NCBI GenBank assembly: GCA_030267965.1
Contig: BRYA01000662.1
Location: 1-36,753, forward strand
Direction: 5' to 3'
DNA from: Triparma columacea
Taxonomy: Eukaryota > Sar > Bolidophyceae > Parmales > Triparmaceae
Length of the DNA stretch: 36,753 nucleotides
Shown here: positions 9,797-34,225 of the stretch, one piece after another
Numbering within the stretch: the first letter of the stretch is position 1
How the letters are laid out: each line of letters opens with the position of its first letter
Position numbers and translations under genes: made by a program
The notes under the pieces: model-generated
The model's database searches: none
What the model was told of the DNA's origin: nothing
The model's input: the letters and a program-made list of their open reading frames with translations, nothing else

Positions 9797-12700
9797 CTAT
9801 TCAAGGATGGGCATGACGCTCACGTTCTTTGCGGACTTCCCTCCGCTGTCCATTCCACTGTCAGTTGTTGACCTCCCGCTTAATCTAACCCTTCCGCTGC
9901 TCTCTTCCACCTTCCTCTTCAAACCGTTTAGCTTGCCCATGGCGACATTCATGGCCGTCTGCCTCCTTTCCTTTTTAGCAATCGTAAACCCAGTCCCATG
10001 CTGAACCTCTGTCGCTTCCTTCACCACATTAGCGAAGTCGTCAGCCAAGTTCTTCTTGCTCGCCTTCCTTCCCCTGCTGCTCTGGGTGATAAAGCTGAAG
10101 CACTCGATATAAGAATCGATGTGGAGCATGTAGCACTCCGTGTACTCCGCGGCCCTGAAGGTGTACATGCTTGGCTTGAAGTCCCCGACGATGCTCCCGT
10201 CCTCACAATTATGAATCACCTTGTACAGGGGCTCTTCCGCCCCCTCATCCTTGACCTCCTCCAACACTTGGACCCTTCCCTTGACAATCAAGAAAACCTT
10301 GTCTGCAGTGCCATCCTTGGCAATGATAATCTCAGCCGGCAAGGCCAGGTATGGTTGCATAGTGTGGCATATGCTCTTTACAAATCCTGACGACGGGGTA
10401 GTGAGCGACAGTGAAAGATGTGAGCAACGCCACGTGCTGAACGGCGACGATTTCCGAGACTCACCTGGCTTGTAGGGCTTGAAAGCCGCAAAGTTCACCA
10501 TTCCTGCGAAACACACATCCTCCAGGAGCCTCCTCCTGACGGATCTCGGCTGCTTCTCCAGCAATACAACCTCGTCCAGATGGTCGTCCGACAACTGCTG
10601 GTGGATAAAGAAGCCGAAGATCATGTCGGTGAGATGGTCCGACAACTGCCGGTGCTTGACATACTTTGCAATGACCTGCGACCAGGCGTTTGCCTGCCCT
10701 GCGCTCGCGTCCATGGCGTTGACCAGGCTACTCATGATGGCTGTGATTCCCGCGTCGCACAAAACACTTCCCGTTAGCATGCTAATCACAGCGAAGGCCA
10801 TCTCGCTCTTGCTCTTGAGCGTGATGTCGCCGTAACCCACGAGAGTAATGGTGTAGACGCTCCAATACAAGCTTGTGGTGTACCTGATCCCGATGCTCAG
10901 ATCCTCCTCCTCCAGATCTGTCCCGCTCGTCCAGCTCAACTCGTCGTCGAGTCCCCGCAAAATGGCGAGGTAGTAAATGATGCAGGCGAACCAGTGGGTC
11001 GTGAGGAGGACAAAAAATACCATCCTGATGCAGTTCCAAATGCCGGCCTTGTACCTCAGCCCGCTCTCCTCTGCGAAGTCGATCATACTTTGCAACAGCC
11101 GAGGGAGCCTGACCAAGTGCACGAACCTGGGGGGTCGTGGTTGAAAATTATCAGATTAGGTTAGTTGGTTGGGTTTGATTGGGTTTGATCGGGTTAAACA
11201 TGGTAATATAATGCATCAATAGGCATCCAAGCACTCCTCGCTTCGTTCGTCGCATTCAATCTCACCTGAAGCACCGCACCAGCGCGACAGTCCTGATGAC
11301 CCTTTCTCCCGACAAGAAGACGACGGCGTCGCAGGGTAGTGATGCCAACAAATCCCACTTGAACTGCCCCTTCAAGTAGATCTCCTTGAAGTCGTGCCTC
11401 TCGCTCACCAGAAGACCTTCTTTGATCACGGCAAAGAGCCTGGTGCTAAAGAACATGTCGACCCAGAAGACGCTGTCAAACACCAGCCCTAGTCCAAACC
11501 AAATCCACTCCGTCCCCTGGTCCTTCATGCCTTCGCCGTAAAAAGCGACTCTTAGCGGAATGAAGACAAAGTTGCACGTCGTGATGAGCATTAGCAGCAT
11601 GTCCCAGCGCCTCTTGAACACTGAATCAGGCAAGAACACCAAGTCCTTCTTCTCTTCCATCTCGTCTCCCAGCATCATCATTTGGGCCATCTTCCCCCCC
11701 TTCTTTAAATTCTGCTTCATCTTTTCCATCTTCCCTGTGGTATCGATCCTATCCGCGGCCGCCTTGATCTGAGTTCTGAATATCTCATCGTGCATAGGGT
11801 CGTTGCTGAGCAACTTCATAAGCTTGGTGTGCTCGAGGATGAAGGCGCACGTGAAATCGCTAGCCACAGCGGCACAGTACCTAGGTTCGTGGTTGAAGAA
11901 CTCCCCCTCCCCCAACAAGCTCGGACTTCTCACCGTCATGAACTTGTCCTTACCATCGAGCAAGTCGACATCGCCCCTCGTTACCAAGAAGAGCTCCGTC
12001 GCGCACTCTCCTTTCTCGTAAACCTTGTCGCCCTTTAAGAAAAAGTCACTAACCAGACTGTCGAGAATCAGGTCAATCACCCCATGCTCGAACTTCTCGA
12101 ACACCGGCGCCGATGTGAGCATTTTGTCGCAGTGGTGCTTCAACACCTCGTGCCTAATCCTGTCGGGCAAGTAGCTCAAAACGTCGCTCTCCCCCGCCCC
12201 CCTCTGCTTTAACCATAGAGTATCGTAGTACTTCCCGACCTCCTCGACAACCTCAAAGCTGACGTTCCTCATCGTCATAAAGACTTTCACCTCGTCGACC
12301 TTCATCTGAAAAAGTGTCGACGTCACGTCGACTTGAGCAACAATTTCCTCAAGGTTGGCAATAACGGTGGCAAAGAGGAGCGTGCCGATGACGAGAACAA
12401 AGATGCTGAATCCCTGCTCGGCCTGAGTGGTGGCGCTCACATCCCCGTAGCCCGCTGTGGTCAAGGCAGTAGTGGCCCAGTATACACTCCTCACATACAT
12501 ATCGAAGGTGGGCATCGGCACAATCTCCTCGCCCTTTGTTATGTTGTCATGTGTAGGGTTGACCCCAATACTTGGGCACCCCCATAAATGGTTTGCCTTA
12601 ATTGAAGAGCTGCAGTCTGCCCAGTTGCTTGCCCCGGCCTCGTTCTCTAGGAAGGCAATCAGGAAGAAGAAGCAACCCAGCCAATGCGCAGAGAGGAGGA

Positions 12701-15700
12701 TGGTGAAGAGGAGCTTAGATACCTTCAACTCATTCTTGTAGCTGTTGTTTGTCAGTTTCAAGAATAGTACATCGATGCACCTAATATGCTCACTGAGCCA
12801 GACAAAGCGGAGCATCTTGAGCGCTCGGAAGGCCGAAAATGTCTGAAGGATGCTCAAGCTTCCCCCAAAGGACACCCCCAAAACGCATAGTTCGACAGGT
12901 AGCAAGCTCAGAATATCGTAGAGGCTTCTACCCTTGTACCAGCCGCCCTCAAAGTACCGCTCCCTGATCTTCTTCTTATCCTTGATGACCTTGTCCCCCT
13001 CTGTGTAGGCAAAAGACGTCATCCGAAGCTGTGATGAGCGCGAAGCGACGCGAAGCGACGCGAAGCGACAACCGAAAGATTAGCTATATAGTATGGGTGG
13101 GGCGAGGCGCGACGACGACTACCATCCCACTAAGGGTGCGAGGAGCGAAAAGACGACAAGCAGCCCACTACTTAACCCCTCCCGCCACTTGCTTCGCGCT
13201 CGCTCTGACTCACCCTCGAATCTAGGAGCCACACAAAGTCGCCAAAGTAGTCAACTATCAACACAAAGTTGAAGGAGTCGCTATTCTCGAAGGCAAGCCT
13301 GAACGGCACCATGAACAAATTGTACGAAAGCACGAAAAAGACGAACAAGTTCCAGTAGAGTTGGAAGTTGCTGTCGGGGCTGCAGACCGCATCGCCCCTG
13401 AAGTAGAGAAAAAAGCGCCTGAATGAGTTCGGCTTATCTAAGTCGCTCCCAGCGAACGACTTTGACGCTGAAATTATCTCCACCATGAGGCTGTTCCGCC
13501 TCGCAGACTTCAATTCCTTCATCTGAAGAGGCAAGCGCGATGACTCCTCTTTCACGAGATCATCAACAAACTTCCCCATCGTTTTGAATTCTTCAGGGTA
13601 CACGTTCTCCAGGCTCCGAAAGGCAACAGGATGGAGAGATGTGAGGACGCAGTTGTCGTTAGAATACGCGTGGAAGTGCCGCTTGAGGTTGAAGAGGGAA
13701 TATTCTCCAAAGCACCTCGTATTATTTGGCCCGTTTGTGCCTGTCGTTCTCAGCGACTCCAGAAGCTCGCCTTTCTCGTTCTTGAGATGGACGACGCCTT
13801 CCTTCAGGTAGTACCACTGGTGGTGAGATGGATTATCGTGGATAATCCAGTCCCCTTGCACAACAATCTGCTCCTTCAGGAGCAGCGCGATGCTCTGCAT
13901 GAGGCCACTGCTACTTTTGACAGAGGAAAAGAGCGGCGTCGACATGATGGCCTCAGAGTGGTTGTGGTTGGCAATCGCGGGGAGAAAAGCGGGTGGGATG
14001 AGCTTCCTCTCAACTTTAGCGCTGTCCTGCATGTGATTTAACATCTGAAAGTATCTGTTGCACCTCTCCACGATGTCGAAGGGCAGCTCCTTCTCGAGCA
14101 TGTACTTTTCGACGCACGTTGTCACGTGCTGAACGTTGTCTTCAGCTATTTCTATCTTGTGGGCCATAGCGGTGATGTTGGCGATCACTCCCGCAGTGAA
14201 GCACGAACCGAGGATCATCATGGCAATGCTGAACCACCGCCCGGAGACGGTCACCGGAGTGATGTCACCGAAGCCCACTGTCGTCATAGTCGTCAGGGAG
14301 TAATAGACTGACGCAATAAAGCCGGCCTTGTCCTCCTGATAGCTCTCTCCCAGGTTCTCCCCCATCATTGCCCACATGCAACTGCTCCAGTGTGTGAATA
14401 CAATGGAAGCAATAGTGAGGTTAATTGCCAAGATTGCGTCAAGGCTAACATGTACCTTGTGTCGATCGAGGTGCTCCTTTAGCCTTCCAACCAGGTAGGG
14501 AAACCTAAAGGATGCAAGCATTTTTGGAACTCTGCAAAAATTCCATGCTCCAAAAGCGAAGCCGAGGAAGTCAAAAGGGATGGCGATAAAAACGTCCATT
14601 GTCATCCTCCCCGAATGCCAATATTCGCCGAAGATCAATTCCTTGTCGACTATGTTGGTCAGCTTGCCGTTTTCGTTGATTTCGGTGTTGGCAAAGAAGC
14701 GTGCATTCAGGATAATGTTGACGAAGCAAAACGCGTCGAAGACGTAGTCGACGAAGATTCCGAAACCTAGCTCGTCGCCCCACGGCGATCCTTCGGCGCG
14801 GCTCTGCACATAAAGGCGATAAGGAATAGCCAAGCTAGACCACGTCGTGCTGATGAGGAGCGTGACGTCCCAAATCACCCTAAAAAGAGAATTGGCGAGA
14901 ATGACCCCCTTGGCTTTTTCCTCCCCATCGGTTTCGTCCATCATTTCGAGCAATTTGTTCTTCTTCCCAATGTTTTTCTGCATCTGCTCGACCTTGCCCT
15001 TCATCTTCTTTCGCTGCTCCAGCCAATCTAAGAAGGTGAGAACGACCCCAAGAAACTTTTCGCCCTCCCCGTCCTCGTCTACTGAGCTCGCACTCCTGAC
15101 GCTACTGTCGCGGTGGAAAGAGGGTCTCGAGGTTCTCCTCGTCCTCGCCTTGGACCCGGGAGAGCCACCGAAGAAAGCTGCTTTCGGTGGCGTGCCTCTC
15201 TCCACATTAAACGCAGCATCCACGGCGGACTGGTTTGCCGCCCACTTTGTAAGCTCTTCTATAAAGTGTTTCGGTACGACGTCCTCGTCGCTAGCCACCT
15301 TCTGCCCATCGGTCTTCTGGACCTTCCCAACTGCTTTAGGCATGAGCTCGCTATTTATCAGGGACACCGTGAAGTCGATCGATCTTGCCTCTGCATCAAA
15401 CATCGGCGAAAGCATAAGCTCCTCGAAGTCCTTACGCTGGAGAGAAAGTAACTCCGTGAAGGAGGCCGTGATATAGCCATACTCCGACGGTGTCCCAAAG
15501 AAAAATTCGAACCCTCCAAAGTGATCACCGACAAGTAGAGATTCGAGGGTGGACTTATCGTCAGAAGGAAGGAGCACATTGACCTTGCCGTTCCTTATTA
15601 TGAACACGTCTCGTATGGGGGCATTCCTAAGCACGACGGCCTCGTTGGGAGAGTATGTTCGGGGTTTGAGTAATTTAGCCACTTCCTCCACCAAAAATGG

Positions 15701-17600
15701 GAGGGATCTCAAGCCCTTGCAGAAGGGGACGCCTTCCAAAAGAGGCACGTTGAGTTTCATTACCTCCGACCTTAGCGATTTCGGGAGGTGGGCGAGGATG
15801 TCAATTTCGAGCTTCCCGTATTGCATCGCGTAGAGGTAGCTGAAGTGGTTCTTGAGCTTTTGTTGGAGGGAGTCAGGCATGGCGTGGTGGTGCATATAAT
15901 CGCTCAGGCTCTCCATGTTTTGGCGAAACTCCATGTACAAGATGTCTTGGTTTGCAATTACGGAGGACATTACTGCGATTGTGACCGCGAAGGAGAAGGA
16001 GCCTACGAGCATCATTATGGTGGTGAAGATCCTGCGCCAGGGGGAAGGAGGGGGGGGAGGAGGGGGAGGAGGGGAAGTTAGGTGCAGAGGGACTTCGAGG
16101 CCGACCGGGCGGACGCCAGGAGGTAGGATGATTGCATCGCCACCACTCACTTTTCGGCCGTGTTTTTTGACACGGTCACGTCGCCGTATCCTATCGTGTA
16201 AAGAGCCTGGGCCACCACGTAGACTGCGCTATTAATCTGGTGGATAAAATTAGACTCAATATCTGACGGAAGTACCCCCGCTTCCATCCAGCTTTCTGTA
16301 TCAGAGCAGTTGGTCGCCCCGGAGCTGATTTGGCTCTCGGTGCATCCAAAGTTGCAGTAAGCATTCTCATGGTTTGGGCACCCAATGGTGATAAGGACGC
16401 ATCCAAACACCACAAGGAGGATCACGATCAGTATTATAACCTTTGAGATCTCGATAAACGCCGCGGACAGCTCGTACTGATTCCTAGCGCAGTACACCTC
16501 AATGTACCTCCAGAAGGAGAGATACCTCACGAGCTTGAGCATCTGGAAGCTCAGCAGAATGATTGCTTGCGGTCGTTCGAGGCCTGCACCTAATGCGACG
16601 AAGTAGAAGGGGAAAAATCCTAGGATGTCCCAAAGGAACCAGGTGTTAAGGTAGCGCATGAAGATCTCCTTGGGTCTGCTGATTATGATGCCCTTTTCTT
16701 CCCAGGCAAAGGCAAAACACCTGCGAAGATGGGAGTGTGGAAAGGGTGAGGTGGGACCAGTTATGTTGCCTATAATGAACAAGCGTACCGCCTCGCACGC
16801 TCGCTCACCTTAACACCAGGTCAAAAAAGAAGACACACTGGATGAAGAGGGCAGTAGCCGTGATCGCTTCACTCTCCACGCTACCCCGGCTGCCGAAAAC
16901 TATTCGACTGGGGATCAAAAAGGCATTTGTTGTGTAAAGAACGAAGTTGAAGACCTCCCAGTAGAAGCGAAATCTTGACGAGGGCATTCTCCATTCCCCA
17001 ATCTTTGCAACCTTGCGTTCGACCTTGCCCGTTTCTACCAGCTTTGCTATTGCTGATGGATCTACATTTTTTACTGTCAGTGACTTGCGCTTCTCGAACG
17101 TCGACCTCTTATTTTCCCTTTTTGATGTGTTTACAGTGTTGGTCTCCCCCTGGACCCTTATTTTCGTGAAGGCACTAACGGCCCTTCCCTTACTTGGCCC
17201 CGTGGAGCGGCTCTTCGGTGTAAGGGCTTGAGCTATCATCTTTTTCTGGGAAGTTTGTGAGCGGCAGGGGGAGAGAAGAGTTCAGGAAGAATGAGCAACG
17301 GGAACCAGGCCTACAGCTGTTAATTTATCAACACCTTCTAAGGTTCGAGACTCGCTCGGCCGCGGTCGCCATCTTGTCATTTACCTGGACTGTATTTCTC
17401 ACGGCGCGGCTCCCTCGCATAAGGGTTGTGCTCCTTTCTCGCATTGCAGGCCCCTCCCGTCTTGGGAAATCATTGTCCTTCTTGGAAGCCCCCCCCAATG
17501 ACGCCCCTCCCCCTATCCCTGTAGCTGTAGCACCAGGATCAATCTCTCGTATGGCTTCGGCCCTGGCCGCCTTCGAGGCCTGGACGGGATCTACAGGCAT
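9797..17600 (-). CDS. Tetra-repeat cyclic-nucleotide-gated K+ channel-like protein (CNGK-like)
   Basis: Exons: 17600-17385, 17245-16809, 16720-16151, 16031-13214, 13028-11266, 11126-10465, 10386-9797; 7056 nt, 2351 residues, all GT-AG, frame closes. There are four tandem units, each with six membrane segments, a pore loop and a CNBD. Pore signatures are T393-IGYGD, T992-VGFGD, T1537-AGYGD and L2030-VGYGD; CNBDs lie at about 512-605, 1122-1219, 1657-1760 and 2168-2258. S4-like segments carry spaced Arg. The GYG/GFG filters indicate K+ selectivity. One chain with four such units is the known layout of sea-urchin sperm CNGK and can form a whole pore. Only CNBD3 keeps the GE-EFF...PR...AVA pattern near the phosphate-binding position, so it is the best nucleotide-binding candidate. 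Linkers hold PKA-type RRTS and RRNS sites. Start: ATG 17600, supported because exon 1 joins in phase exactly as in the neighbouring paralogue. The 78-nt intron 10464-10387 is in frame and stop-free, so an isoform with 26 extra residues is possible. Confidence 0.85.
13039..13068. repeat. 3 x 10-bp tandem repeat in a channel intron
   Basis: CGCGAAGCGA is repeated three times within the intron 13213-13029, just before the acceptor in transcript direction. The complement ACGCTTCGCT recurs in the nitroreductase intron 2 (about 9140-9168), and similar CTTCGC text sits near acceptors of other introns in the window. Confidence 0.75.
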
Positions 17601-17950
17601 CCCCTCAACCGATGAGAGGAGAAAACTCAGATAAAACTGCTTCCCTGATTCGGCTCCCTGGCTAGACTGAAGGATCTAGTTTTTATGGGCCCCCCTTGCG
17701 GCCACAGACGTGACTGCGCTTTAGGATAATTTACCTCGTGGGGACTAGCTCCTCTTCGGCACCCGTGCGCAACTTATTTCTGGCGTGGCGACGTCAGCTT
17801 CCCCATTTATTTGCTCACCATCACATGGGACAGCTCTTAATGTCAGGTTTGCCGTCTGCCAAAAACCATTTCCTCTCTCTGTGGACAAAGGGAAATGAAA
17901 TAGCAGAGAAAGATTAAGCCGCAGTTTTTAATTCGGCCGCTGTTCGCGTC
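17601..17950. promoter_or_regulatory. Divergent promoter region, tetra-repeat channel / acetyltransferase-protease fusion
   Basis: A 350-bp space between two divergent ATGs. It holds GACGTCA at 17790-17796, seven of eight bases of a cAMP-response-type bZIP site, the only site I can name. No TATA box stands out and I see no RNA gene. Confidence 0.35.
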
Positions 17951-19210
17951 ATGTCTGAGATCGCGAATCAGCCTTCAGATGCGCTGTCGCTTGTTGCGAT
18001 AGATGAAAATTCCCCTGCTGCTACCCTCCAAAGCGCCAAGAAGGTTTGCCTTGAGGCTTTCGGCCACTGGGGTTCCGTCCCGTGTCCCGGTGTCCCTTCC
18101 TCTGCTTCTCTCTTGGCCGTCTATGCTGCAGTTCACCGAGTTCATGGAGTCTGTGGATTTGCTGCTCTAAAAAAACACCACCAGCCGGGTCTCGGTCACC
18201 TGCCTCAGAACAACGGCATACTTCACACCGTGTGCGTGGAGAAGCACCTCCGGGGGTTAGGCATCGGTACTAGCCTTGTTCGACTTGTCGTCGAGCGGGC
18301 TAGACTCTATCATGAGCTTGACTACCTTCTCCTCGCAGCCCAAAAGGGGCCCAATCAACCTCGCCTCTTGAGCCTCTACGCTCGCTGTGGATTCCTGGAG
18401 GTGAAGGGGGAGGAGGTGTCTAGCATGGGATCGAGCCTTGCCAGGAAAATAAGCGATGATTCGGTCGCAAAGTTGGCCTCCTTCCTTTCCTCTCGGAGCA
18501 AGGATAGCGCCAACGTTGTTGCTGGACCTGGCAACGTGTGGATGAAAATGAGGCTAAGGAGCAGATGTGTTGAAGCCAAACGGGGGGTCGAGATTGCTGA
18601 CTCAGACTTTCCCCTTCCAAAACCTCCTCCCCCGTTCCCTCTTGCTCTCATTCGAACTAAAAAATTTATCATCAATTTCGAGCCACAGGTCGGGCCGAGC
18701 TGTGGTCTCACGTGCCTTTACATGATTAGAGGTGCCCTCGGACTAGTCGATGGGGCTGACGACTTACTGTCAATGGCGCAAGAAAGGGGGCTCACAAAAG
18801 ACGGGGAGATGTTCTCCACTCGCAACTTTGCTCAACTTTGCTCTGACGTTCTTCCCACATGCGAAGTCTCCTTTCACGCCACCTTTCCCAGCTCTGAAGC
18901 CTTTGCGAGCTCCGTTTCGGATTCTGTCTTCCTAGTACCTTTCGACATAGTTGGCAACTCTGTGGGATTCCGTGAGGGCAATGCTTCCCACTGGGGCATC
19001 GTGAGCTCCTTCCTGAAACCTTTAAGCGACAATAACGAGTCGTCGGCTCTCTTCCTGTACGTCCAGCACTCCCAAAACAGGGTTCCAATCCTCACCGAAT
19101 ATCGCCAGCTGTTGGAGTCCAACTCACAGCTCAAGGAGACCAACGCCAAGTTTTCTGGGGGGAACATGCTTTCTGGAACATCGATTGAGATAAAACTTCG
19201 CCGGCCGTAA
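17951..19210 (+). CDS. GNAT acetyltransferase (NAA80-like) fused to actin-maturation-type cysteine protease (ACTMAP-like)
   Basis: A single exon of 419 residues, ATG 17951, stop TAA 19208-19210. Residues about 10-150 are a GNAT fold: a beta strand HTVCVEK leads into the acetyl-CoA pyrophosphate loop R101-GLGIGT, and LLSLYARCGF supplies the late Tyr and Cys/Gly-Phe block of the family. Residues about 150-230 are a linker. Residues about 235-419 match the ACTMAP (C19orf54/UPF0692) family: VGPSCGLTCLYM with candidate nucleophile C251, a GEMFS motif, VPFDI, and SHWGIV with candidate catalytic H347. In animals ACTMAP removes the acetylated first residue(s) of actin and NAA80 then acetylates the new acidic N-terminus, so one chain holding both would do consecutive steps in the cytosol. 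The protease assignment is fairly firm. The GNAT is clear as a fold, but its NAA80 identity rests on general likeness plus this fusion. It shares a divergent promoter region with the tetra-repeat channel. Confidence 0.75.
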   Translation: MSEIANQPSDALSLVAIDENSPAATLQSAKKVCLEAFGHWGSVPCPGVPSSASLLAVYAAVHRVHGVCGFAALKKHHQPGLGHLPQNNGILHTVCVEKHLRGLGIGTSLVRLVVERARLYHELDYLLLAAQKGPNQPRLLSLYARCGFLEVKGEEVSSMGSSLARKISDDSVAKLASFLSSRSKDSANVVAGPGNVWMKMRLRSRCVEAKRGVEIADSDFPLPKPPPPFPLALIRTKKFIINFEPQVGPSCGLTCLYMIRGALGLVDGADDLLSMAQERGLTKDGEMFSTRNFAQLCSDVLPTCEVSFHATFPSSEAFASSVSDSVFLVPFDIVGNSVGFREGNASHWGIVSSFLKPLSDNNESSALFLYVQHSQNRVPILTEYRQLLESNSQLKETNAKFSGGNMLSGTSIEIKLRRP

Positions 19211-19505: not shown

Positions 19506-22500
19506 ATGCCTAACAAGGCCAAGGTTTATGTAATTGACACAAATGTCCCTCAACAGGCAGAGAAGTCCATCGCGAGGGGACACTCTCGGCAAGCGATGCA
19601 TCACCTCACCGAGGAGCAGACCAAAAAGTTTGATCCAGACGAAGTGCTCGATGTAAGTTCCCGGGATGGGATGCAGACTTTGGGCTGTATTGTTGCATTG
19701 ATAGGGTTTGCTATCTTTTGTCCCCTAGTGTCCGCTGTTTGAGTTGCTATGTCGCTTGCGTTGCTCTGAGTGTCCTACTAACCATCCCAAACTGTCCCCC
19801 CTCCCCCAACAGCATGCAATACAAAAACACGCCATCACCCCAATGGGCCGGGCGTCCAATCGCTTCAATTCTTTTGAAGAAATTGTCGTCATAGATGATG
19901 CTGCTGATAGTCATGTGGGAGCAAAGCTTAAAGGCGTCCGGCCAATTGGAAACTGGCGTCTGCCTACCTCAAGGTTCAGGGCATTTTGGGAGACGTTCAA
20001 TTTCGTCGTGTACGCGATGAACTGTTTCGTCTTGCCGTTCCGGATGGTATTCCATCAGAGGGAGAACGTGAGTAATGCCCGAGTCCCTTTGTCTGGCCTT
20101 TATCCATCTCAACCTCCCCTTCCCCTACCTCTCTCCCCTAGTTCTCTGAGCCAGTTGAAGTCTCGTCGCTCTGCGCGTTTTTCCAGCTGGTTTTCATCGT
20201 AGATTTGTACCTTAGGGTGCGCAAGTTTTGCCTCGAGGACGCCGGGGTAATGCAGACCACCCCCAAGGCCATCTTTGATGCCTATAAGGTGAGGGAGACT
20301 GAAAAAGAAAAGAAAGCCCTTGCCCTCATCCCACAAAGTGACATCCCTAACCCCATCCCACACATACACGCACCCCAGAACGAGTGGATGTACTGGGACT
20401 TGGTGTCTTGCTTCCCCTCGTACTACTTCGCACGATTTCTCGGTGCGCCAAAACCAACTGCGTCCCTCTTGCTGGGGTTGCAACTCCTGCGCGTCGTCCG
20501 ATACTTTGACTACTGGTCTTTCATAGATCTGTACATGACGAAGCAACATATCGGGAAGAACCCTGGCGTCATGGAGGTCTCCAAGATTGTGATTGTAATC
20601 ATGATCCTCGTGTCTATCCTAGCTTGCGTTTTCATCCAGATTGGCTGCTCAAACCATGACCCTGAGCTTGGCTGCCTCGACGATCACAGCTGGCTCGCAA
20701 ACTCGAATCTTGAGGTTCAAGCGTCTGACCCCCTTACGCAGCTCAACGCGGCTGTGTACCTAGTTTCCCAGGCTCTTTACACTGTCGGCTATGGGGACGT
20801 TCCGACATCTTCCACCATCGTACAGCTTGTCTTCACTACCGTTATTATGCTGATGGGGGCGTTCTCTTTTGCGGTGGTCATTGCCGTAATGTCCTCAGTA
20901 ATCGCGAACCAGGTGAGATATTGTTGTATTCTTGCCCTCGAAGTTTTTCCCCATTCTTCGCTGACCATCTTCCCACCCGAATCCCCTCCTTCTCTAGGAT
21001 ATCCTCTATGTTGATTTTCGCCAAAAGCTCGAGCAAGTGGCTCAGTACATGAGGTTTCGGGGTCTGCCCGACCACCTTCAGAGGAAGCTCGTGAACCATT
21101 TTAACTACCTTTTTGAAACTCAGTACGGAAAGCTGGAGATCCAGGTGCTGAACGAGCTTCCTAGGGCTCTCAAAGCTGAGGTTCTTATGCTCAATGAGTA
21201 CCTCGTCAAGAATCACCCATTCATTCTCTACACCAAGGATAAGTTTTTCTCTGGGGAACTCATTAAGATCCTCATTCCTCGTACCTACTCCCCTAACGAA
21301 ATCGTTGTGTTCAGGCACTCTCCGATCAACTGCATGTTTTTCATTCGGTTCGGAAAGATCAACATCCTTGCCCACGACGACCAGTCCACCGTAACTTCCC
21401 TCCTCGCTGGAGAGCACTTTGGTGGATTTGAGTTCTTCTTCGACATACTTTTCGAGCACACTTACAAAACCAGCACATTCACAGAACTCCTCGTCTTGGA
21501 TGGGAGCAGCTTCAAAAATATGATGTCCAACCCTCGCTTTGCCGACATTAAGGAGGACGTCGATAGCACTGTAGAAATATTTAGCAAGTATCTTAATCAG
21601 ACAATCCTCGGAATCGGGAATGCAAAGTTTCAGAGTACGAGGAAGAAGACAAAGAGGAAAGGCGAGGAGGATGAGGATTTGCTGGGTAAGAATGGAAAAA
21701 TGAAAAGCGTCGGCATTGCGAATTAATTGCGAGCGGAGCTTCAATCTAACACCCCTTCGCTCTTAGCAGACAGGGAGGAGGCTGCGACCGCTGCGAATGA
21801 CAGGGCGGCAGAAGAAGCCGCTGCCGCTGCAGTTGCTGACGCTGAGGCTCTTGTGGAAGCTGAATCTAAAAGCCCCAAGATACAAGTATCAAACCTGAAC
21901 AGTGCGAATTTCAGTGCTAAGAGCTCCCCGGGGCAAAGGGCTAGAATGACGGCTCTCAAGACGAAGGATGACGTCTTCCCAGCTTACTTTATCCGAAAAC
22001 TGAAAAAGGAGTTTGCTGACGCGAAAAAGCAAGATGACGAGATGGAGGATGACGAGTATCCCTTTGCTGTCACCGACTCGGGCTACCACAGGGGTATTAC
22101 TGCCATGCTGCTCGAGTGGTGGAAACAGCGAAATAGCGTTAACGAACAGGTGAGAGTGTATGAGAACAGTATACTATGAGCATCCCAAAGACGACAATAC
22201 GCACGTCGCATGGAATTCAATTTTACATTCACTAAAACAAACCCCATCGCTTTGCCCCTCCCCCCTCTTCACTTCGCTCGTCGTTTGTCGCAGATATCTA
22301 TCTTCTCCAAAAATATGACCAAGAAGAAAAAGTTCGTCGACATGCTTAACGAAAAGGAGGATGAGGAACTTATACTCATGCCGGATTACTTCGTGATCCT
22401 TGCAGACTCCCGCTGGCGGAAGATCTGGGATACAATATCCCTCATCCTTGCTCTCTACCTCACAATTATGATCCCCCAGCGTTTACATGATAGCACTGAA

Positions 22501-25500
22501 GCTACCAACGAAATACTTACCGACGAGATGGGATCGAACCTCATTGTCGACTGGTTGTGCGACTGCTTTTTCTTGATGGACATCTTCATGCACGCTAGGG
22601 TCTTCGCGCTCACAGAGATAAACGAGCAGGGAAAGACGATCCACATCACAGAGCGAGACCAGATGATCAGAGAATACTACAAGAATGGCCACATGGTTCG
22701 TGACATTGTCACTTTCTTCCCGTACGACCTTTTCGGGCTCGCCGTTGGCTCCTACAATGCTCTTAGAATACCAAAGCTCATCATTGCGCTTCGCCTGCCT
22801 AACATTCTTTCTCAGCTCAAGGTGCACCTCAACCAGACCTACAAGATCCAGCTGTCCCTGGACAACATGCTCGTCATCAACCTTCTCTGCTCCACCGTTC
22901 TCTTCACCCACTGGATTTCATCCATATGGGCAATCTTACAAATCATCGATGATGTAAACACGGAAGGTTCGCGTTACGTTTCTTCGATGTACTGGTCGTT
23001 AACGACGCTCACTACTGTCGGTTTTGGCGATATAACGCCGTCCACGATCAAGTCCCGCTGGTTTGCGGTGCTGGTGATGATAATTGGTTCGTGTTTCACT
23101 GCCGCAGTCATTGCGAACATCACGTCGATGTCTCATAAGGTGGTCATATCTGAGGACAATGCGCAGCACGTCACGACTTGCGTTGAAAAGTACATGGTAG
23201 AAAAGAGCCTCCCCCATGACATTAGAGAGCGCTGTATCCGATACTTCTACATGCTCAAAAACGACATAAATGAGGAAAAGATCCTTAATGAACTTCTTCC
23301 GCCTCCTTTCATTCCCGATATAGCGATGCACGTGTACGAGGATGTAATAGCAATGACACCGATGTTTGAGAGCTGCGATGTGTCAAAGGGACTCATAAGG
23401 AGGTGAGTAAGAATAATAAACAAAACACCGAGCAGTATCGCGACGACACATCACATCACAGCATCTTCAAACCCACAACCCTCCAACTCTCTCCGCGCGT
23501 CGCAGCGTTGCGATGATTCTCCGTGAGGAAGTGGTGGTGGAGCAGGATTGGGTGCTAAAAGACAACCCTGCCCATGACAAGTGGTATTACATCAAGTCCG
23601 GGATAATTCATATTTTGGATGTCGTCAGGGGAAATGATGTTCTCTTCGTGGTCTCTCAGCAGGATCACTTGACATTCGGGGAGGCCGCCTTGTTTTACCC
23701 ACCTGGCTTCAACTTGCGCTCGCCGTACAACGCCAAGGCGCAAAGCAACTGTATCCTGATCTCTCTAGATCCCAAACTATTCCAGTCCTTAGAGACGAAA
23801 TACGAGCCAGAGTTCAACAGGATGAGAGAATTCATTTCTCATGGAGAGACTTCTCACAAACAGGGCCATGACGAGGATGATACTTCGAATGCTAAACTTG
23901 GAGCTGTGCCGCAGGAAGGAGAGACGAAAACGGATCCCAACAACGTTAACAGAATGTCACGGGGGACCCACAATACTCGCCACGTCACCATGTTCGGCAG
24001 GAAGAGCGTGCGGGCCGCTACAAACTTGGCAGAGGCGCTCAGTGGGATGCAAGCCAAGCATCTCGAGGACAGCAAGAACCCCTTTGTCTTAATCTACAGG
24101 GCACTCTCGGGGAAGTTTATCTTCCTTCCTGACTCAAACTTCCAACTTATTTGGAATCATTTAGTGTTCATGTGTCTCATCTACAACATAATGATGATTC
24201 CCTTCCGGATATCCTTCTCGGGAGGCAAGTACGGGTACTTCTCGTGGTACTTCCTCTTGATGGACTACTTCGCGGATGTCATGTTCATTGCTGATACCTT
24301 CCTCCGCTACAATTCCTTTGCTTACCTCGAGGGTGAAACTGTCGTGTCCGACAAGGAGAAAATCCGGGCGAACTACATGAAGTACCTCAAGATCGACGTA
24401 CTGTCTGTTCTCCCGATTGAGCTCCTCACTCTTCCATTACCTGTGCAACCTCTTACGAATGTCCAAGTCTTCGCAATCTTCCGAGCGTTCCGCCTCCTCA
24501 GGGGGAGACATTATGAGGAGCATATCCGTTGCTTTGACCATTTCTTCTACTACGTCACGTCTCAGCGAAACAAGAACTCTCTCAAGGTGCTGAAGCTCTT
24601 ATCCTTGATGATACTTTCCGCCCACTGGATCGGTTGCATTTGGTTTTACATGGCTTACGTTCAGCATAAATATGACATGCCAAATTGGGCCGACTGCAGA
24701 AGTAGCATAGCTGCCAACCATCTCTTTGGCTGCGATGCCGATGTTCAAAACTCGACCTGGGCGCCAATGAGCTCTCAGTACATTAGGTCTGTTTACTGGG
24801 CATCTACGGCCCTCACAACTGCGGGGTACGGGGACGTCTCGGCGACGACCACTCCGGAGCAAATCTTCTCCATAATTGTCCTCGTCATTGGGACGCTAAT
24901 CTTTGCTACCGTCATTGCGAATCTTGAGGAAATTGTTGCGCAGGTTGATGTGACGTCAACCCTCTTCCAGCAGTCGGTGGAGGAGGTGAATGCCTTCATG
25001 AAGATGCGCCTCATTCCTGTGCACGTGCAGGAAGAGATCGGCAAGTACCATGATACCCTCTGGCTGAAGCAGAAGGGGGCGTCTGAAACGGCTATCCTGT
25101 CTTACCTCCCTGGACGGGTGAGGCACGAAGTGCTCAAATTCCATGCCTTCAAGTCACTTAAGGAAGCCCCCGTCTTCAAGGAGTTGGGGTCTGCGTTCCT
25201 GAACGAGATCCTTGACGAGCTCGATTCTGACTTTTTCCTGAACGACGCTGTGGTGTGGGAAAAAGGAGAGTGCGGTTTTGAAGTTTACTTCATAACGCGC
25301 GGTAACGTGGACCTCATGGATGGAAAGAATAAGCTGTTCTCTGTCGGTTCTGGCGGCCTGCTTGGAGAGGGCGAATTCTTCGCGTGCTCTCCTAGGTCGA
25401 CGAGTGCAGTCGCTTCGACGTACACGACGGTGTTTTTCTTGCGCTTCGAAAACCTGCAAAAGCTCCTTGACGGAGATTCTTCCAGTAGGGCTACCTTCGA

Positions 25501-28500
25501 AGAGTTTCTCGTCAAGTCCAAGGCTGATTACGACGTGAACGTGAGGGTGGAAAAAATGAGAAAGAACTTGAAGGCCGGCGGAAAGATGGCGCAAATGATG
25601 ATGCTCGATGACAACGCAGATGACGGGAAGCCTTTGGTGTTCCTTCCAGATTCCGCCTTCCGGCGCTACTGGGACCTCATTGGTATGATTGTCATGCTCA
25701 TGAACTTCTTTTTCATTCCCATTAGGATTGGTTTCTTCGAGCAAGACACCCCGGGTATTGGAGAGTTCGCCTGGTTCATCCTCAACCTTACCTTGGACTG
25801 TATCTTTTACGTGGACATCATGCTCAATCTGAGATACTTCGCAGTTGTCTTCGAGGGCCTTCTCATCTCAGACCGAGCCGAATTCGCCGAGCTGTACATT
25901 CGCGGTAGACTCAAGTGGGATGTGATTGCCTGCTTGCCGATTGACAGCATCGGGTACGTCGCAGGAATTCCTCTTATTCGAACCTATTCGGTCTTCCGCC
26001 TGCCTCGTGCGATTCACTTGTTCCGCCTCCCCCACAACATCCAGTCCTTTATCGACCTCTGTGAGGAAAATGGTATCCGTGCAAAGTCAGGAATTTGGAA
26101 CTGCTGCCGCATGGTCATATTTGTCCTCATGTCAACGCACTGGTGCGCCTGCATCTTCTACTACATCGCCGTCCTTCAAGGACTCGACAGTTCCACGTCC
26201 TGGACGGTTGACCTTCCTCTCAACACTTCCGCAGTTCCGATGAACCTTAAGTATTCAACCTCGATCTACTGGAGCATGTACACCATTACCCTTGTGGGTT
26301 ACGGCGATATCACCCTGAGGTCGAACTCGGAGATGCTGTGGTCGATCTTCACCATGCTAATTGGCACGATCCTTTGTGACGCTGGCATCACTGCTATCCT
26401 TTCCTCGATCATTCACACCATGGATGCCTCCGCCGGAGAGGCGCAGGCTTGGGTTCAAGTAATTACCAAGTATATGCGGCATCGCTCGCTCCCCCTTGAT
26501 CTTCAGGAACGTATTTTCGGTTACTTCGTCCACATGCACCTTTCAGAGGACGACCTTGATGAATTCAAGGTCCTCATGCATCAGCCCAGATATATTAAGC
26601 ACAAGCTCTTGGATTCCATTTGCTTCGAGGTAATGAGGGCAAAGTTTATGCCTCTCGAAAAGTTCGGCGACGGCTTCCTCAAGTCCGTCATCCATGGCAT
26701 GTACCCCTATTTGGCCCTTCCTAAGGAAATCTTGCTGTCTGCTGGGAACCCCAGTGATAAGGTTTTCCTCATAGTCCGCGGCAAGGTGAACGTGCTCACT
26801 GCATCTCGTAACAAATTCTTGGTGACGGACACAATCGAGCATGGAGAGGTCGTTGGAAACTTCCGTGACAGTGAGGTAACACACCGAACCGTCTCTTATA
26901 CTGAACTCTACTGCCTGCCCCTTGAGCACTACTCCCATTGCTTCTCTTACGTCCAAAACGATAAGGAGGCCGCCCTCATTGACAAGAAAAATAAACATAG
27001 GAACATGCTTATGGAGGGCAAGATCAGAGGCTCTTCGCGCACATTTGGTTCTTTCAGATCCAAGTTGGGGAACGGAAACCGCCTTGCTATTGATCTCGTC
27101 AGGCGCAAGACCTCGCAAATCCCGACGATCGAACGAAATTCGTTTGTCCGCCTCGTGTGGAATCTAACCTGCCTCTCCTTTGCCATATACCTGGCATTCC
27201 TCGTTCCTCTGGAAGTGTTCGTGCTTCCTGATTACAGATTCTTTTCTCCCGGTGCGGATCCTGGCATCATTGCTCTCAATATTGTAGACATTCTGGTGGA
27301 CATGTTCTTCGTCATAGACGTCGTCTTCCGCATGTTCTTGTTCAATGACTTCAATGCCGGACAGAAGAATGCTCAAGGAGAGGAGGAGACCATCTTTTGG
27401 CTGTACATCGATCAGCGCCTTTTTTGGGTTGATCTCCTCTCCTCTATACCCCTGGAGCACATCGCTTCCATCAACACAGAGCGGGAGATTGCCGTGTATC
27501 GTGGTTTGAAGCTGCTGCGTGTCTTCCGTATTCCGGACTATACGTCGTACCTGCTTGGCCTTTTGGAGGAACGAAGGATCCTCACCCACATTGGCCTGCA
27601 GCGGATGTGGAACTTGTTCTTCCTGAGCGGCCTCGCCGGGCACTGGGCCTGCAGCATATTCACTTACGTGTCCACCATCGACACTGGAAAGCGTGCTGAG
27701 CAACTTGCCCACGTCTTTTCTTTGAACAACGGTACCCTTCCAGACTCCTTCGTCACTCCTCTACCACCAACATGGATAGAGCTTGATGGTCTTGTCTCCT
27801 ACAACTTCACCAATCTTGCGAACTCGACGTACAGCGGTTTAGTTGTCCGTGAAAATCCTCTCGTGGAAGTCTACATCAGGGGGCTTTACTGGGCGTATGT
27901 GACAATGATCACCACTGGCTTTGGAGACATCACCCCGTCCACAACGAGCGAAACTCTCGTGTGCATCATTTGCATGTACGTTGGAGTAATTGTGACTTGC
28001 GCTGCGATTGCCAATTTGACCCTCTTGGTGTCGAACTTCGATCAAGCATCCAATGAGTTTCATCAGAAATTGGACAACGTCAACAAGTACCTCACCTACC
28101 AACAGGTTCCTGCGGTCTTGAGTAACAAGATCAGGCAATATTACGAGTACCAGTGGACCGTCCTCAAAGGCGTCGATGAGAGCCGCTTCTTGGACGATCT
28201 TTCTCCTCAGCTTCGACAGGCTTTCCAGGAGCAACTCATCGAGGATTATTTGGTCAATGTGGATGTCCTCAGAAGATCTCCGAAGTCCCTAATCACTACT
28301 ATGCTCCAGATCGACGTAATGGAAAAAATCAGCCTTTCACCTGGAGACATCCTCTGTCAAAAGGGAACCTCTTGTAAGGGCCTTTATGTCCTCATTCAGG
28401 GCGTTGCCGAGATCCTCAAGGGCAAAGGAACGACCAGTATTGGCTTCGCCGATGTCAGCATTGATAAAGATATCGTTGAGAGCACCATGAGGAAGGGCGA

Positions 28501-31500
28501 TGTGACCTTTGGCGTCTTCCTCCTCAAGGAGCTTCCCGTTCCGTCGACCATTCGAGCCAAGAGTTACTGTGAGTTCCTTCACATGAAAAGGGATAAGTTT
28601 CAGAAGATCGTGGTGAGGCACTGCACCAGGGATGAAGTCGACGGTATGCTAAAGACGGGGTTGAAGTCCTTGGAGAATGCTGAGAAGTTGAAGAAGTTTT
28701 TGGGTGGAGCAGAGGATGTCACTATGTCGGGCTGGATCAACACATTTCTGCCTGGAACAAAGGCACGCAGGCGTTGGGACGTCATGTCTGCTCTTGTGTG
28801 CTTCTTCTACGCAATAGAGATCCCACTTCACATTGCGTTCTGTTATTCGAAGGTCAGCTTCGGTTTCTTGGCCACCGCCATTCTTGTGGATATTTTCTAC
28901 GCTGGCGATCTATTCATGCATGCCTTTTACTTCCCGTACAGGGACGCCAAGAGTGGTCTGCTCGTTTTTGAAAAGGCTGATATTTTTGCCAATTTCAAGG
29001 CGCACCACTCTAAGCTCACGAGGCTTTGGCATGGGCTCACGTGCATCCCTGTCGAAGTGCTTGTGCTGGCCGATGTGCTCCCTCCAACCCTTCTGCCAGT
29101 GTTGCGCGTTTTGAAGTTCAACAGGCTGATGGATGTCCCAGTTGCCCTCACCAATCTTGAAGATGATTTCAGTGAGAAGTTGAAGCTCGTCGACAATAGT
29201 ACAAAGAGGTTTGTGAAACTCAATTTGGGCATGATTGCGGTTTGTCACTTCACAGGTTGCTTCTGGTATTTCATTGGCACCTTCACAGCGCAATCCACCC
29301 AGCAAGACAACTGGATCGAAGTCGACCAGAACGAGTACTTGAGCCATGACGATGCTGCAGGTTTTGGTTGGTACTTTAGGAGCTTCTACTTTGCTCTTGT
29401 TGGGATGAGTACAGTAGGATACGGAGATATTGTTCCCATCAGTATCGCTGAGACTATTGTTGCCGGGATTATCATTCTCTTTGGTGGTCTTGTCCTCCCT
29501 GCTGTCGTGGGGGGGCTTGCGAGTCTCATGGGCAACATGAACGCCAACCTTGCGCAATTCAAGAGAAAGATGGACAACCTCAAACTTTACATGAACGAAC
29601 ACAAGTTCCCGAGGCCGTTGCAGGAGCGCATCAAAAACTACTACAACTATCTCTGGACGAGGCTCGGAGGTAAGAGCGACCGGGAACACGAGTTGGCAGA
29701 CTTGCCGAAATCCCTCAAGGATGAGTTGAGTAGCTGCATCAAGGGGCCTATCCTAGCCCAGGTAGGGTTTCTAGACAACATGAATACGGAGATTATGAAG
29801 GCTATAAGGGCCTCCCTTCGCCCTCAGATTTTCCTTCCTGGAGACGTGATAATCAAGGCTGGTGAGTATGGTGAGGAGATGTACCTCATCGAGAGGGGCA
29901 AGATCTTCGTCACTTCGGTAGATAGAAAGGTCATGTTTGCAGTCCTTGAGCGAGGAGACTACTTCGGGGAGTCTTCTCTACTGACTGGGGAGAAGCGCAA
30001 CGCTACAGTATTCTCTCCTGGGTACTGCGACTGCCTCGTCTTCACCAAGGCTGCCTTCGATAAGATCATGCTAGAATTCCCCATCCAAAAGAACATCTTG
30101 GTACGGCAGATTGAGAAGGAGCTGGAGAAGAAGACGAAGGTTGATAGTGCGGTTGAGCAGAACCTAAAGAGCCACGAGAAGCTTCTGAGCACACAGACAA
30201 AAGAGGAGAGCAGTGACATCTCTTTCGACTCGAAGATAACGTCGGCCCACCCTGACTCGAGATTTAGGATATTCTGGGGCGCCATTGTTCTAATAGCTGT
30301 GGTACAGTATAGCTTTAAGGTCCCTTTTGATGTGGCTTTTGCTCACTCACTCCAGCCTTCTTTCTTCATTCCTGACTACGCTTTTGACATCTTCATGATC
30401 GTTGATATGTACTTGAAATATAGCGTCTTTGCCTACAGCGACGGCGGTAAGCTCGTCCAGGACAATACCGCCATAGCTGAGCATTATGTAAAGACTGAGT
30501 TAAAGATGGACGCAATTTCTTCAATCCCTTATGATATTGTCGGTGCGTTGGTCGCGCAATTAACTAATCCAGGGAACAAACAAGTAATGGTCTTGGGGCT
30601 GGCGTGGAGTAGGATCCCAAAGCTTATTAGAGTGCTGCGAATCAAAAGTTACTCTAGCGTGCTGGAGAAGTTGCTGGAGGAGCTGGGAATGAATCGGGGA
30701 AACAATGGAGTCAACTTGATTAAACTTCTAGTGGTTGTCGTGATCATCAGTCATGTGGCCGCCTGCTTCTTCTTCCTGATGGCGTTCCACCTTAATAGTT
30801 CTTGGGAAGATTGTGAAGGCCTCCCCAGCGACGACGAAAACGTGAGTTTGAGTTCCTGGGGTAGCGAGTTTAGCGTTTGCAAGTGGGAGGGAACTTGGAT
30901 GCAGCTGCAGGTGGACGAAGATAAGGTCGAGGGGCGGGCAGATGCCATTAGTTTCTACGTGAGGGCCTTTAACTGGGCTCTTCCGACCCTCGTTGTTGTC
31001 GTTATCGGAGATGTAATTCCGTTGACCATGGATGAGACGATGTACTGCTTGTTGTGGATGCTGGTCGGTGTGACGATTAATGCAAGTATCGTTGGAAATA
31101 TTGCTAGCATTGTCGCCAACTTGGAGACCGAGAGCAGCCTCTTCATCAAGAGGGCAGATACTCTGCAGGACTACTTGCACCAGCATGGCCTCCCTCAGCA
31201 CATTCAAGAGCGGGCGAGAGCCTACCTGGACTGGCTTTGGAGCGAAAGGAGAGGGAAGAACCAGGACAGCATCCTCTTCGAGCTTCCCTTCACTTTAAGG
31301 TCTGAGGTAAGCAACTTGAGTCGGCTAAGCTACGTGAGGAGCTGCGAATTCTTTAAGCACCTTCCGGACAACCTTGTCGAGGCCATTGCCATGAGTTTCA
31401 AGAGTCACCTTTACAGCATTCACGACCAAATTGTGAGTGTGGGCGACGAGAGTTTTGAGTTGTTCTATATAGAGAAAGGTGGCGTTGAGGTCATCTTGAG

Positions 31501-34225
31501 TGACAACAAGACAGTTTGCGCAAAGATTGACGCTGGCAACTTCTTTGGGGAGAGCGCCCTGTTCACGGCGGGGCATAGGATGGCGAACATCAGGGCGGCA
31601 GATTTCTGCGAGCTGCTCAGCCTACATAGGATTGACTTCAGCAAGATCTTCAAAAACTTCGAGCAAGAAAAGCAGAAAGTTTTGGAGGTGTTCACTAAAA
31701 TGCAGGAAAGGAACCAGAAGAGAAATCAGACGGTAGAAGACGAGCTCAAGAGAAAAATGTCGCTCGTCATGCACATGGTGCCAAACAGTACTTCGCAGAC
31801 ATTCAGTTTAAGGGGCGCTGCGAGTGGGGAAGGGTTCCTCGAGGGGTTCCTTCGTTCTATGGAGACAGCATTCTGCCAGCACTCGCACATAAGGGTGGTT
31901 TGGGAGCTGTTTGGACTACTGAGCCTTCTGTACTTAATAATCTTCATCCCCCTTAGGCTCGGTTTTTACATCGACGAGAAGGATATTGCCGCCCCCGTTG
32001 ATTACCTCGTGGAGCTTTACTTCCTCAGTGACATCATTTTGCGCTGCTACTTCTTCAATAACGACGTGGCGGAGGAAGGAGAAGGAACTAATTCCATTGA
32101 AGCGACGTTCAAACTGAAGACAAAAGTGAACGTGAGCTACGAGCAGGTGAAGGACGGAGGAGTCAAGACGCTGTTCTCCTGCGAGATTGAAAGCAGAAGG
32201 GACTACAAAAAGGGTCTAATTTATCTGGACCTCGCGGCGATTATCCCCGTTGATATCTTCGTGCTGATGTCGCCGTCTATTTCTACAACGTCATCTCTGG
32301 CATTTGCTCTCAGGCTTGTTCACCTAATCAGGGTCCACCGCTTCTTCGGCTACATCAAGACCATGGAGGGCTACCTTTACCATATAAGGATAAGAGTCGG
32401 GGCCGACTTTATCCAATTGGCGAAGGTGATGATCACATATGTCCTAGTCAATCACTTTTACGCTTGCACTTGGATGTGTATTCACAGGTATGCAGAGGGA
32501 GATGTCGAGTTCACTTGGGCGACGGTTGACAAGATAAGCACTTGGGACCCCATGGTCGGAAAACACGACATTTGTAGTGCCAAGGACACGGGAAGGTGTT
32601 ACGTGAGGGCTTTCCACTTCGTAATTACCACCATTAGCTCTGTGGGGTACGGGGATATTTATCCCACAACCCAATTCGAGACAATTTTTGAGTGGGTAGT
32701 CGTGGTCAGCGGGGCTGCTCTCGTCGCTTCGCTCATCGGGTCCTTCGTGTCCTTCTTCCAGGGGCAAGACAGCAGCGGAAGTTCCGCCTTTAAGATGAAG
32801 CTCAACCTCATCCAAGAGTACATGATCTACAAGGATCTCCCAGAACAGCTTTGCAAAGATATCTTGAAGCATCATCGAAGCGTCTACGCGCAGCAGAAGA
32901 CGCTTGATGTCAGAACGGTGATGAGTGACCTACCTAGACCGTTACAGATGGAGATTGCAATGTTCATTAACCGCCAGATCATCCACAAGGTGCCCCTCTT
33001 GAGGGACTGCAGCGTCACCATTCAGAAGACCATTGCGCTCGCGATTCGTCCGCAATTCATTGAGATGTACAGCTTCGTGTATCACCAGGGCGACATTGGG
33101 GATTCGGTTTACTTCGTTTTGAAGGGAAACGTCTTGGTCCACCAGGGCAGGGACACTTCCAAGCTGGATAGGAAGCACCGTGAGAGGGCAAGAAGGGAGA
33201 GTATCCAACAGGGCATTAGGGACGGTGGGAGTTTTGGAGAGGACGTGGTCGTCAGCAAGACAGGTGTAAGGGTTGAGAGTGCTAGGGCCCTTGTGAATAG
33301 CAACTTGTACACCCTCAGCAAGGGCGAAATTGAGAACATTATGAGTATGCTTGGTCCCGGTGCCAGGATCATGTTCCTAGAGAGACTCCTGAAGAGGGAC
33401 CTTGCGTACGAAGGCGAGGACGAAGAGAGCGACAGTAATGAGGAGGAGGAGGAGTATGAATTCAAGGTTAGCGACGGAATGTTGACCCCTCCCTCGCTCA
33501 TGAGGAAGAAACGAGGAGAGAATTACGATACGAGCGAAGGGTTGGCCTCGAGAAACACTTTGTTCGAGAAGAGCTTGGAGAAGAAAGCGGGGAAGTGGGC
33601 AAGTGGTAGGGGGGGCAGGGCGCGTCTCAGCAGCAACGACCACGAGACAAACTTGGAGAGCCCCAACTCGATTCTGCACACGCCCAACGAAAAGGTTTCT
33701 GGGCCCTCTGTGCAGGCGCCCTCTGTTCCGGGGGAGAGGCGCAGGACGGCTGTTACCAAGGGGGGGGAGTCCAAGCATGAAGGCAATGAAATGCTCATGC
33801 CGAATAGGAGAGAAAGCAAGGTGATCGAGGCGGACCCGAAGATGCTTCGGAAACAGTTTGCGAAGAAAATGATGTCTGCGCAGTCTGAGAAGAATTTTAT
33901 GATAAAGAATGGACTGAGCTTCGAGAAAGGTATCGACGACGTGGAAGAGGAGGACGAGGAGGACGATGCATTTGGACTCGACCTAGACGACGAGGACAAA
34001 GACGTCCTCGGCATGTTTTCAAAACGAGGGGGGGGACTGGGGGAGGACGGGATGATCGTTGAAGGGAGCAAAGAAGATTTGAATAACAACTTCATGAACA
34101 TGATGGTGAAGAAGAGGTTCACGAATGTCGAGAAGATTGCAGAGAACCAGGATAGCTTTAAGCTTGACACAAAGATGGGAGGTTTGGGTGTCGTCGCTGG
34201 GGTTTTGAAGGGGGAGGAGGGGTAG
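19506..34225 (+). CDS. Giant eight-repeat CNBD K+ channel-like protein (octo-repeat, two tetrads)
   Basis: Exons: 19506-19652, 19813-20067, 20142-20288, 20379-20912, 20998-21685, 21767-22149, 22294-23402, 23506-34225; 13983 nt, 4660 residues, all GT-AG, frame closes. There are eight units of six membrane segments + pore + CNBD. Pore motifs: T318-VGYGD, T959-VGFGD, T1526-AGYGD, L2017-VGYGD, T2557-TGFGD, T3057-VGYGD, V3585-VVIGD (repeat 7, degenerate), S4133-VGYGD. CNBDs lie at about 446-540, 1090-1190, 1640-1747, 2133-2233, 2677-2790, 3177-3283, 3700-3807 and 4250-4374. Repeats 1-4 correspond in order to the minus-strand paralogue; repeats 5-8 are extra. CNBDs 3, 6 and 7 look most canonical (CNBD6 GDYFGESSLL, CNBD7 FFGESALF). 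After CNBD1 there is an Ala-rich linker. The tail (about 4395-4660) alternates acidic runs and basic, RRES-type phosphosites. If four units make one pore, this chain could make two. The apparent stop at 21724 lies in an intron (21686-21766), not in the coding sequence. The start ATG 19506 is the first in-frame ATG of exon 1. Confidence 0.85.

Follow-up and report, generated by a model that had tools for sequence, protein, structure and literature searches.

The contig BRYA01000662.1 of Triparma columacea (C572) carries a gene, G8, whose predicted product strings together eight six-transmembrane (6TM) channel repeats, each followed by a cyclic-nucleotide-binding domain (CNBD). The window analysed here is bases 1-36753 of this contig, from a genome of 37.85 Mb in 789 contigs. 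Since both halves of the predicted protein pair one to one, and in order, with separate four-repeat genes of the same genome, sequence comparison shows G8 to be two distinct pseudo-tetrameric CNBD channels fused in frame: repeats 1-4 make up the alpha tetrad and repeats 5-8 the beta tetrad. We put at roughly 0.66 the probability of the full reading, in which two diverged four-repeat channels were fused, each tetrad would keep its own pore, and each predicted chain would hold two tethered pores.

The spliced model of G8 runs from the ATG at 19506 to a terminal stop at 34225, the only stop in the frame, over seven GT-AG introns of 74-160 nucleotides, which show the DNA to be eukaryotic. Whole-genome profile searches at Pfam's own cut-offs (25 bits for Ion_trans, 27.5 bits for cNMP_binding) found eight Ion_trans matches on the plus strand of the window, at 47.5-71.8 bits, and eight CNBD matches along G8, at 28.8-65.9 bits, two of them (28.8 and 29.2 bits) barely above the cut-off. 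By profile, the order of 6TM Ion_trans domain, C-linker and CNBD is followed in all eight repeats. The first-pass annotation had proposed eight repeats in one continuous spliced frame of about 4660 residues, and its coordinates, its length and both sets of eight domain matches were reproduced. Its eight pore motifs and CNBDs also stood, whereas its eight S4-like segments proved a generous count: S4 carries only two Arg/Lys residues in repeat 1 and three in repeats 2 and 6.

Six of the repeats lie inside one 10.7-kb exon, exon 8, which is open through the repeat 4/5 junction; repeats 3-8 need no splice at all. This exon holds six Ion_trans and seven cNMP_binding stretches, and residues 1-1207 of the model hold two of each, the last CNBD being common to both counts. 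The introns further upstream were compared with a channel-repeat profile built from 28 repeats, G8's own among them. The exon pieces of repeat 1 match this profile in succession at positions 2-43, 50-90, 91-269 and 270-480, and repeat 2 matches it at 2-350 and then, beyond intron 7, at 355-496. Profile positions are thus almost gapless over introns 2, 3, 4 and 7 (in a profile that includes these repeats), indicating that these introns interrupt continuous domains. Intron 5 has the ends GTAAGA...TTAG and is located in a poorly conserved linker; its retention would sever repeat 1 from the remainder of the protein at an in-frame TAA.

An open frame at the repeat 4/5 junction, without stop or frameshift inside the exon, had been claimed at the outset and was borne out: over 26801-27250, the coding frame alone of the six frames has no stop. 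The linker between repeats 4 and 5 is 71 residues long, inside the range of 54-225 spanned by the six other G8 linkers, which appears to leave no room for an intergenic region. In a codon-use model trained on the two four-repeat genes G4 and C268 (see below), the true frame came out on top in 116 of the 118 windows slid along exon 8, all but 26387-26566 and 27017-27196. The junction DNA was found in one copy in the genome, by a search that skips simple repeats.

The alpha half pairs with G4, the stand-alone four-repeat gene next to G8. As the first reading of the DNA had suggested, repeats 1-4 match those of G4 one to one, with 43, 43, 53 and 49% identity, and all other pairs among the 12 repeats of G8 and G4 share 17-24%. 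A recent duplication of repeats 1-4 into 5-8 was considered and rejected, since repeats of the two sets share only 18-24%. The proposal that repeats 5-8 form a second tetrad was strengthened by the discovery of its counterpart, C268, a stand-alone four-repeat gene of five exons and 2323 residues. Repeats 5-8 match C268 repeats 1-4 in order, at 36, 36, 37 and 34% (best tblastn pieces among 15 loci compared). In a genome-wide search with repeats 5-8, C268 scored 1196 bits, with 38% identity over residues 210-2097 of 2101, and the next locus, C384, scored only 198 bits. C384 and C140 are two further stand-alone four-repeat genes, both of alpha type, whose gene models are not closed at the C-terminus.

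A maximum-likelihood tree of 28 repeats agreed with these pairings. It was computed on the 458 columns kept after dropping those with more than 25% gaps, with four outgroup repeats (two from C476, one from C297 and one from C230), other CNBD channels of the genome being left out. All eight repeat-paralogue pairings received an ultrafast bootstrap value of 100, and the repeats of C384 and C140 grouped with the alpha repeats at all four positions, with values of 99-100; the deep nodes, which concern the relationship of alpha to beta, received 18-71. No further channel repeats were found in the flanks of C268 (9.6 kb on each side), C140 (9.6 and 8.6 kb) or C384 (9.5 and 3.7 kb), or in the 9.3 kb that follow the window. 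IMG/VR, scanned with six peptide patterns taken from repeats 5-8, gave no match.

Distances between G8 and G4 (0.84-1.13) are below those between G8 and C268 (1.47-1.90) in every repeat. The simplest history would be that beta genes diverged first, that an alpha gene was then duplicated locally to give G4 and G8, and that one alpha copy finally gained a beta tetrad. An ancestral eight-repeat gene that was split later is less likely: all alpha distances are smaller than the beta distances, and there are stand-alone genes of both types, three alpha and one beta, so that fission would need several losses, although rates may differ.

Both halves have been under constraint. Across the eight repeat-paralogue pairs, third codon positions are 33-40% identical and second positions 56-69%, compared with 30-32% and 45-49% in two unpaired controls. 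Since third positions are near the controls and second positions well above them, both halves have long been maintained as protein. The stretch from P-loop to S6 is 55-89% identical in these pairs, versus 21-43% in S1-S4, and is the best conserved of the five regions compared in every pair but one, that of repeat 4 of G8 and G4, with 67% versus 68% for S5 (25 columns). For beta repeats 5-8 the P-loop to S6 values are 70, 72, 74 and 55%, versus 21-29% in S1-S4. Because the pore region is the best conserved in seven of eight repeats, two pores per predicted chain is the best reading of these data. In the CNBD, repeats 6 and 7 share 48 and 40% with C268, compared with 27 and 34% for repeats 5 and 8.

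The canonical filter for comparison is TVGYG (a comparison also made in PMC7576140). A GYG or GFG motif is present in repeats 1-6 and 8 and absent from repeat 7, which reads VVVIGD, without the first Gly and without Tyr or Phe. This filter is kept in C268 repeat 3, though the two paralogues are only 37% identical overall. The label of potassium channel given to the whole protein thus suits the alpha tetrad, where all four repeats carry G(Y/F)GD, and is not established for the second tetrad, one of whose filters is a conserved VVVIGD. Cyclic-nucleotide gating, also proposed earlier, is likely, but not through every CNBD. In the alignment, the Glu and Arg of the phosphate-binding cassette are present in repeats 3, 6, 7 and 8 and, with an insertion, in repeat 2, and both are absent in repeats 1, 4 and 5; the cassette of repeat 6 can be aligned with that of TAX-4.

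Repeat 7 was also modelled by itself with AlphaFold2, from an alignment of seven repeats, all from this window. In the model, a beta roll comes after helices that were assigned to S1-S6 and the C-linker, and among 50 matches listed its best matches in the PDB were chains of CNG, HCN, Eag, SthK and the plant channels SKOR, GORK and AKT1. With moderate confidence, and for that repeat only, the model supports a 6TM-CNBD unit.

A single mRNA and protein, two pores, their selectivity and their ligand gating are what we infer from these comparisons. In the proposed mechanism, the alpha tetrad would be followed by the linker and the beta tetrad in one predicted polypeptide, and each tetrad would fold into its own four-fold pore, giving one chain two tethered pores. 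The alpha pore would have potassium-channel-like filters at all four positions. The beta pore would combine three such filters with one conserved VVVIG position, and because of that position its selectivity is probably altered. Ligand sensing would be concentrated in the CNBDs that keep their cassette, namely repeats 6 and 7, probably 3 and 8, and perhaps 2; the chief gating repeats would be 6 and 7 on the beta side and 3 on the alpha side. For the sea-urchin channel CNGK, excerpts of a published study report that one cGMP on the third CNBD gates the channel (PMC4749565); by analogy, a tetrad could plausibly manage with only a few functional CNBDs. Through the fusion, two cyclic-nucleotide-responsive conductances would be fixed at a 1:1 ratio and in one place, with cross-talk between them possible. 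A more specific version, which we hold only tentatively, is a single chain of about 48 transmembrane segments in which a K+-type pore would be covalently coupled to another whose filter is of a new class (three G(Y/F)G and one VVVIG), with gating by a few surviving CNBDs mostly in the second half. If this were true, the response to a single ligand event could be a switch of two opposed conductances at a fixed ratio.

Several observations weigh against the two-pore fusion. Intron 5 has consensus sites as its sole support. Codon use is neutral over most of the repeat 4/5 linker, since the window 27017-27196 covers about two thirds of it. Hydropathy counting, which is too crude for transmembrane segments, gave six peaks in only four of the eight repeats, with a range of 3-8. 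The repeat 7 model has a mean predicted local distance difference test score of 67 and a predicted template modelling (TM) score of 0.43, and among the matches listed its PDB relatives align with TM-scores of 0.37-0.47 (by query length) and a root mean square deviation of about 12 Å or more. Branches of the beta half are longer in G8 than in C268 for all four repeats, which could reflect relaxed constraint. Finally, the fusion is known from one assembly.

Some of these points bear on alternatives. It is unlikely, in our judgement, that the chain forms one conducting pore and that the other tetrad, for example beta, acts as a tethered ligand-sensing or regulatory module. The unorthodox filter of repeat 7, the gathering of intact cassettes in repeats 6 and 7, with those of alpha repeats 1 and 4 lost, and the longer beta branches in the fused gene would all fit such a division of labour. 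However, the P-loop to S6 stretch is the best conserved region in all four beta repeats, and the altered filter is conserved in C268, whose chain has no alpha partner. That the locus yields two four-repeat channels, through an internal promoter, alternative transcript ends, ribosomal restart or proteolysis, seems improbable: both tetrads do occur as separate genes and codon use is neutral in most of the linker, but the tetrads share one exon and one frame, and the stop-free junction is no different in length from other inter-repeat linkers.

Misjoining of two genes during assembly or annotation is very improbable. The single assembly speaks for it, yet an accidental join would have had to keep the frame, fall within a short linker, leave the domains on both sides complete and put alpha before beta. 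Moreover, full-length identity between any repeat and those it was compared with never exceeds 53%, and the junction DNA, found once, lies in a contig that runs on to 70,090 bases. We give equally little weight to pores formed between chains, in which at least two eight-repeat proteins would swap tetrads or repeats to make mixed alpha/beta pores. Linker lengths would permit this tethering and CNBD channels are known to form heteromers (CNGA1/B1 entries were among the PDB matches listed), but each tetrad has a complete stand-alone counterpart, so that a mixed pore is not needed. The existence of each tetrad as a separate gene speaks against the hybrid pore offered as an option in the first-pass annotation. 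The fusion of two four-repeat channels, each with its own pore, is the reading that we retain. Coordinates are collected in Table 1.

Table 1. Channel genes of the window and the parts of G8 discussed in the text (positions in the window).
Feature	Position	Strand	Description
G8, eight-repeat CNBD-channel gene	19506..34225	+	8 exons, 4660 residues; spliced model and domain matches
Exon 8, one open exon	23506..34225	+	3572 whole residues; CNBD of repeat 2 and repeats 3-8
Intron 5	21686..21766	+	Least supported splice; takes out in-frame TAA at 21724
Repeat 1	19948..21654	+	Filter YTVGYGD; CNBD cassette without usual Glu, Arg; spread over 4 exons
Repeat 2	22387..24061	+	Filter TTVGFGD; CNBD continues over intron 7 (23403-23505)
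Repeat 3	24110..25624	+	Filter TTAGYGD; cassette Glu and Arg present
Repeat 4	25625..27109	+	Filter TLVGYGD; CNBD cassette shortened
Repeat 4/5 linker	26945..27157	+	71 residues; coding frame stop-free
Repeat 5	27110..28729	+	Filter ITTGFGD; cassette lost; partner C268 repeat 1
Repeat 6	28730..30238	+	Filter STVGYGD; intact cassette GESSLL..KRNAT; partner C268 repeat 2
Repeat 7	30239..31870	+	Filter VVVVIGD; intact cassette GESALF..HRMAN; partner C268 repeat 3
Unorthodox selectivity filter VVVIGD, repeat 7	30995..31012	+	Surrounding FNWALPTLVVVVIGDV identical in C268 repeat 3
Repeat 8	31871..33412	+	Filter SSVGYGD; cassette Glu and Arg with one-residue shift; partner C268 repeat 4
G4, neighbouring stand-alone four-repeat CNBD channel	9797..17600	-	7 exons, 2351 residues; paralogue of repeats 1-4

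Other channel loci were seen in the genome. Besides the four four-repeat genes (G4, C140, C384 and C268), there are apparent two-repeat CNBD-channel loci, namely L012 and L013 on opposite strands of C476, L015 on C438 and L014 on C297, as well as apparent single-repeat loci. One-, two-, four- and eight-repeat loci thus seem to coexist, which would make the steps comparable in one organism. Two of the alpha-type genes have a C2 domain inside the CNBD of repeat 4: L010 on C140 (about 420-790, minus strand; Pfam 1.4e-18) and L009 on C384 (about 8050-8440, plus strand; Pfam 1.4e-4, barely above the cut-off). The C2 domain lies near the position of the shortened cassette in repeat 4 of G8 and G4. 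A swap of nucleotide sensing for Ca2+ or lipid sensing is possible, judging from these domain matches.

Elsewhere in the window, one open frame at 17918-19207 (plus strand) matches a GNAT acetyltransferase (PF00583, 2.3e-8) and an actin maturation protease-like domain (PF21646, 1.8e-16), the latter being the only ACTMAP-like match found in the genome. The GNAT part gave three weak acetyltransferase matches (E 0.0097-0.044), and its likeness to NAA80 is thus a candidate only. In animals, according to excerpts of two papers, dedicated enzymes process the actin N-terminus, with acetylation by NAA80 as the last step (PMC11465159, PMC10318143); by analogy, the predicted protein could unite two actin N-terminal steps. 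A protein kinase domain frame lies at 1203-2540 on the minus strand (PF07714, 1.5e-47), and bases 1-1000 have an extreme GC skew of -0.835, probably a C-rich low-complexity stretch.

G8 can be set beside several known channel types. Nav and Cav channels are four-domain, internally concatenated pseudo-tetramers with 24 transmembrane segments in one chain, a build that each G8 tetrad shares; they differ in having no CNBD, other filters and one tetrad per chain. CNG, HCN, KCNH and SthK channels assemble from four separate subunits. When solved structures were searched by sequence, the best stretches came from repeats 3 and 6 of G8; repeat 6 aligns with TAX-4, and the repeat 7 model has the predicted fold.

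Closer in build is CNGK of sea urchin and zebrafish sperm, described in excerpts of PMC4749565 as having four 6TM-CNBD repeats per chain, a GYG/GFG pore motif and some CNBDs thought to be non-functional. The alpha half and G4 share the four-repeat build; G8 differs in having eight repeats, not exactly four, and, with VVVIGD in repeat 7, in not carrying GYG/GFG in every repeat. CNGK is from animals and choanoflagellates, whereas the host genome of G8 carries light-harvesting genes: 57 matches were found, and the single-domain PDB chains that they resemble are chlorophyll a/c proteins, the top hits of that search being the multi-domain light-harvesting complex entry 9vfj. The host is thus probably a chlorophyll a/c alga. 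Excerpts of a 2020 survey of 262 homologues (PMC7576140) report that dinoflagellates and oomycetes have tandem CNBD channels of two repeats, and that none were identified in other groups of the stramenopiles, alveolates and Rhizaria; four-repeat forms appear there only as CNGK, in animals and choanoflagellates, and none has eight. These tandem channels resemble G8 in their tandem 6TM-CNBD repeats, diverged to 30% identity or less, and differ in having two repeats rather than eight. No eight-repeat channel was found in the open-licence literature, among the matches listed.

In the literature found, concatenation in this superfamily reaches four repeats, with one tetrad per chain. The conserved VVVIGD filter lends itself to asking how many filter strands of the orthodox kind are required in a pore. 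If two separable tetrads do make up one eight-repeat chain, the series would be extended, suggesting that evolution joins whole channels and not only subunits.

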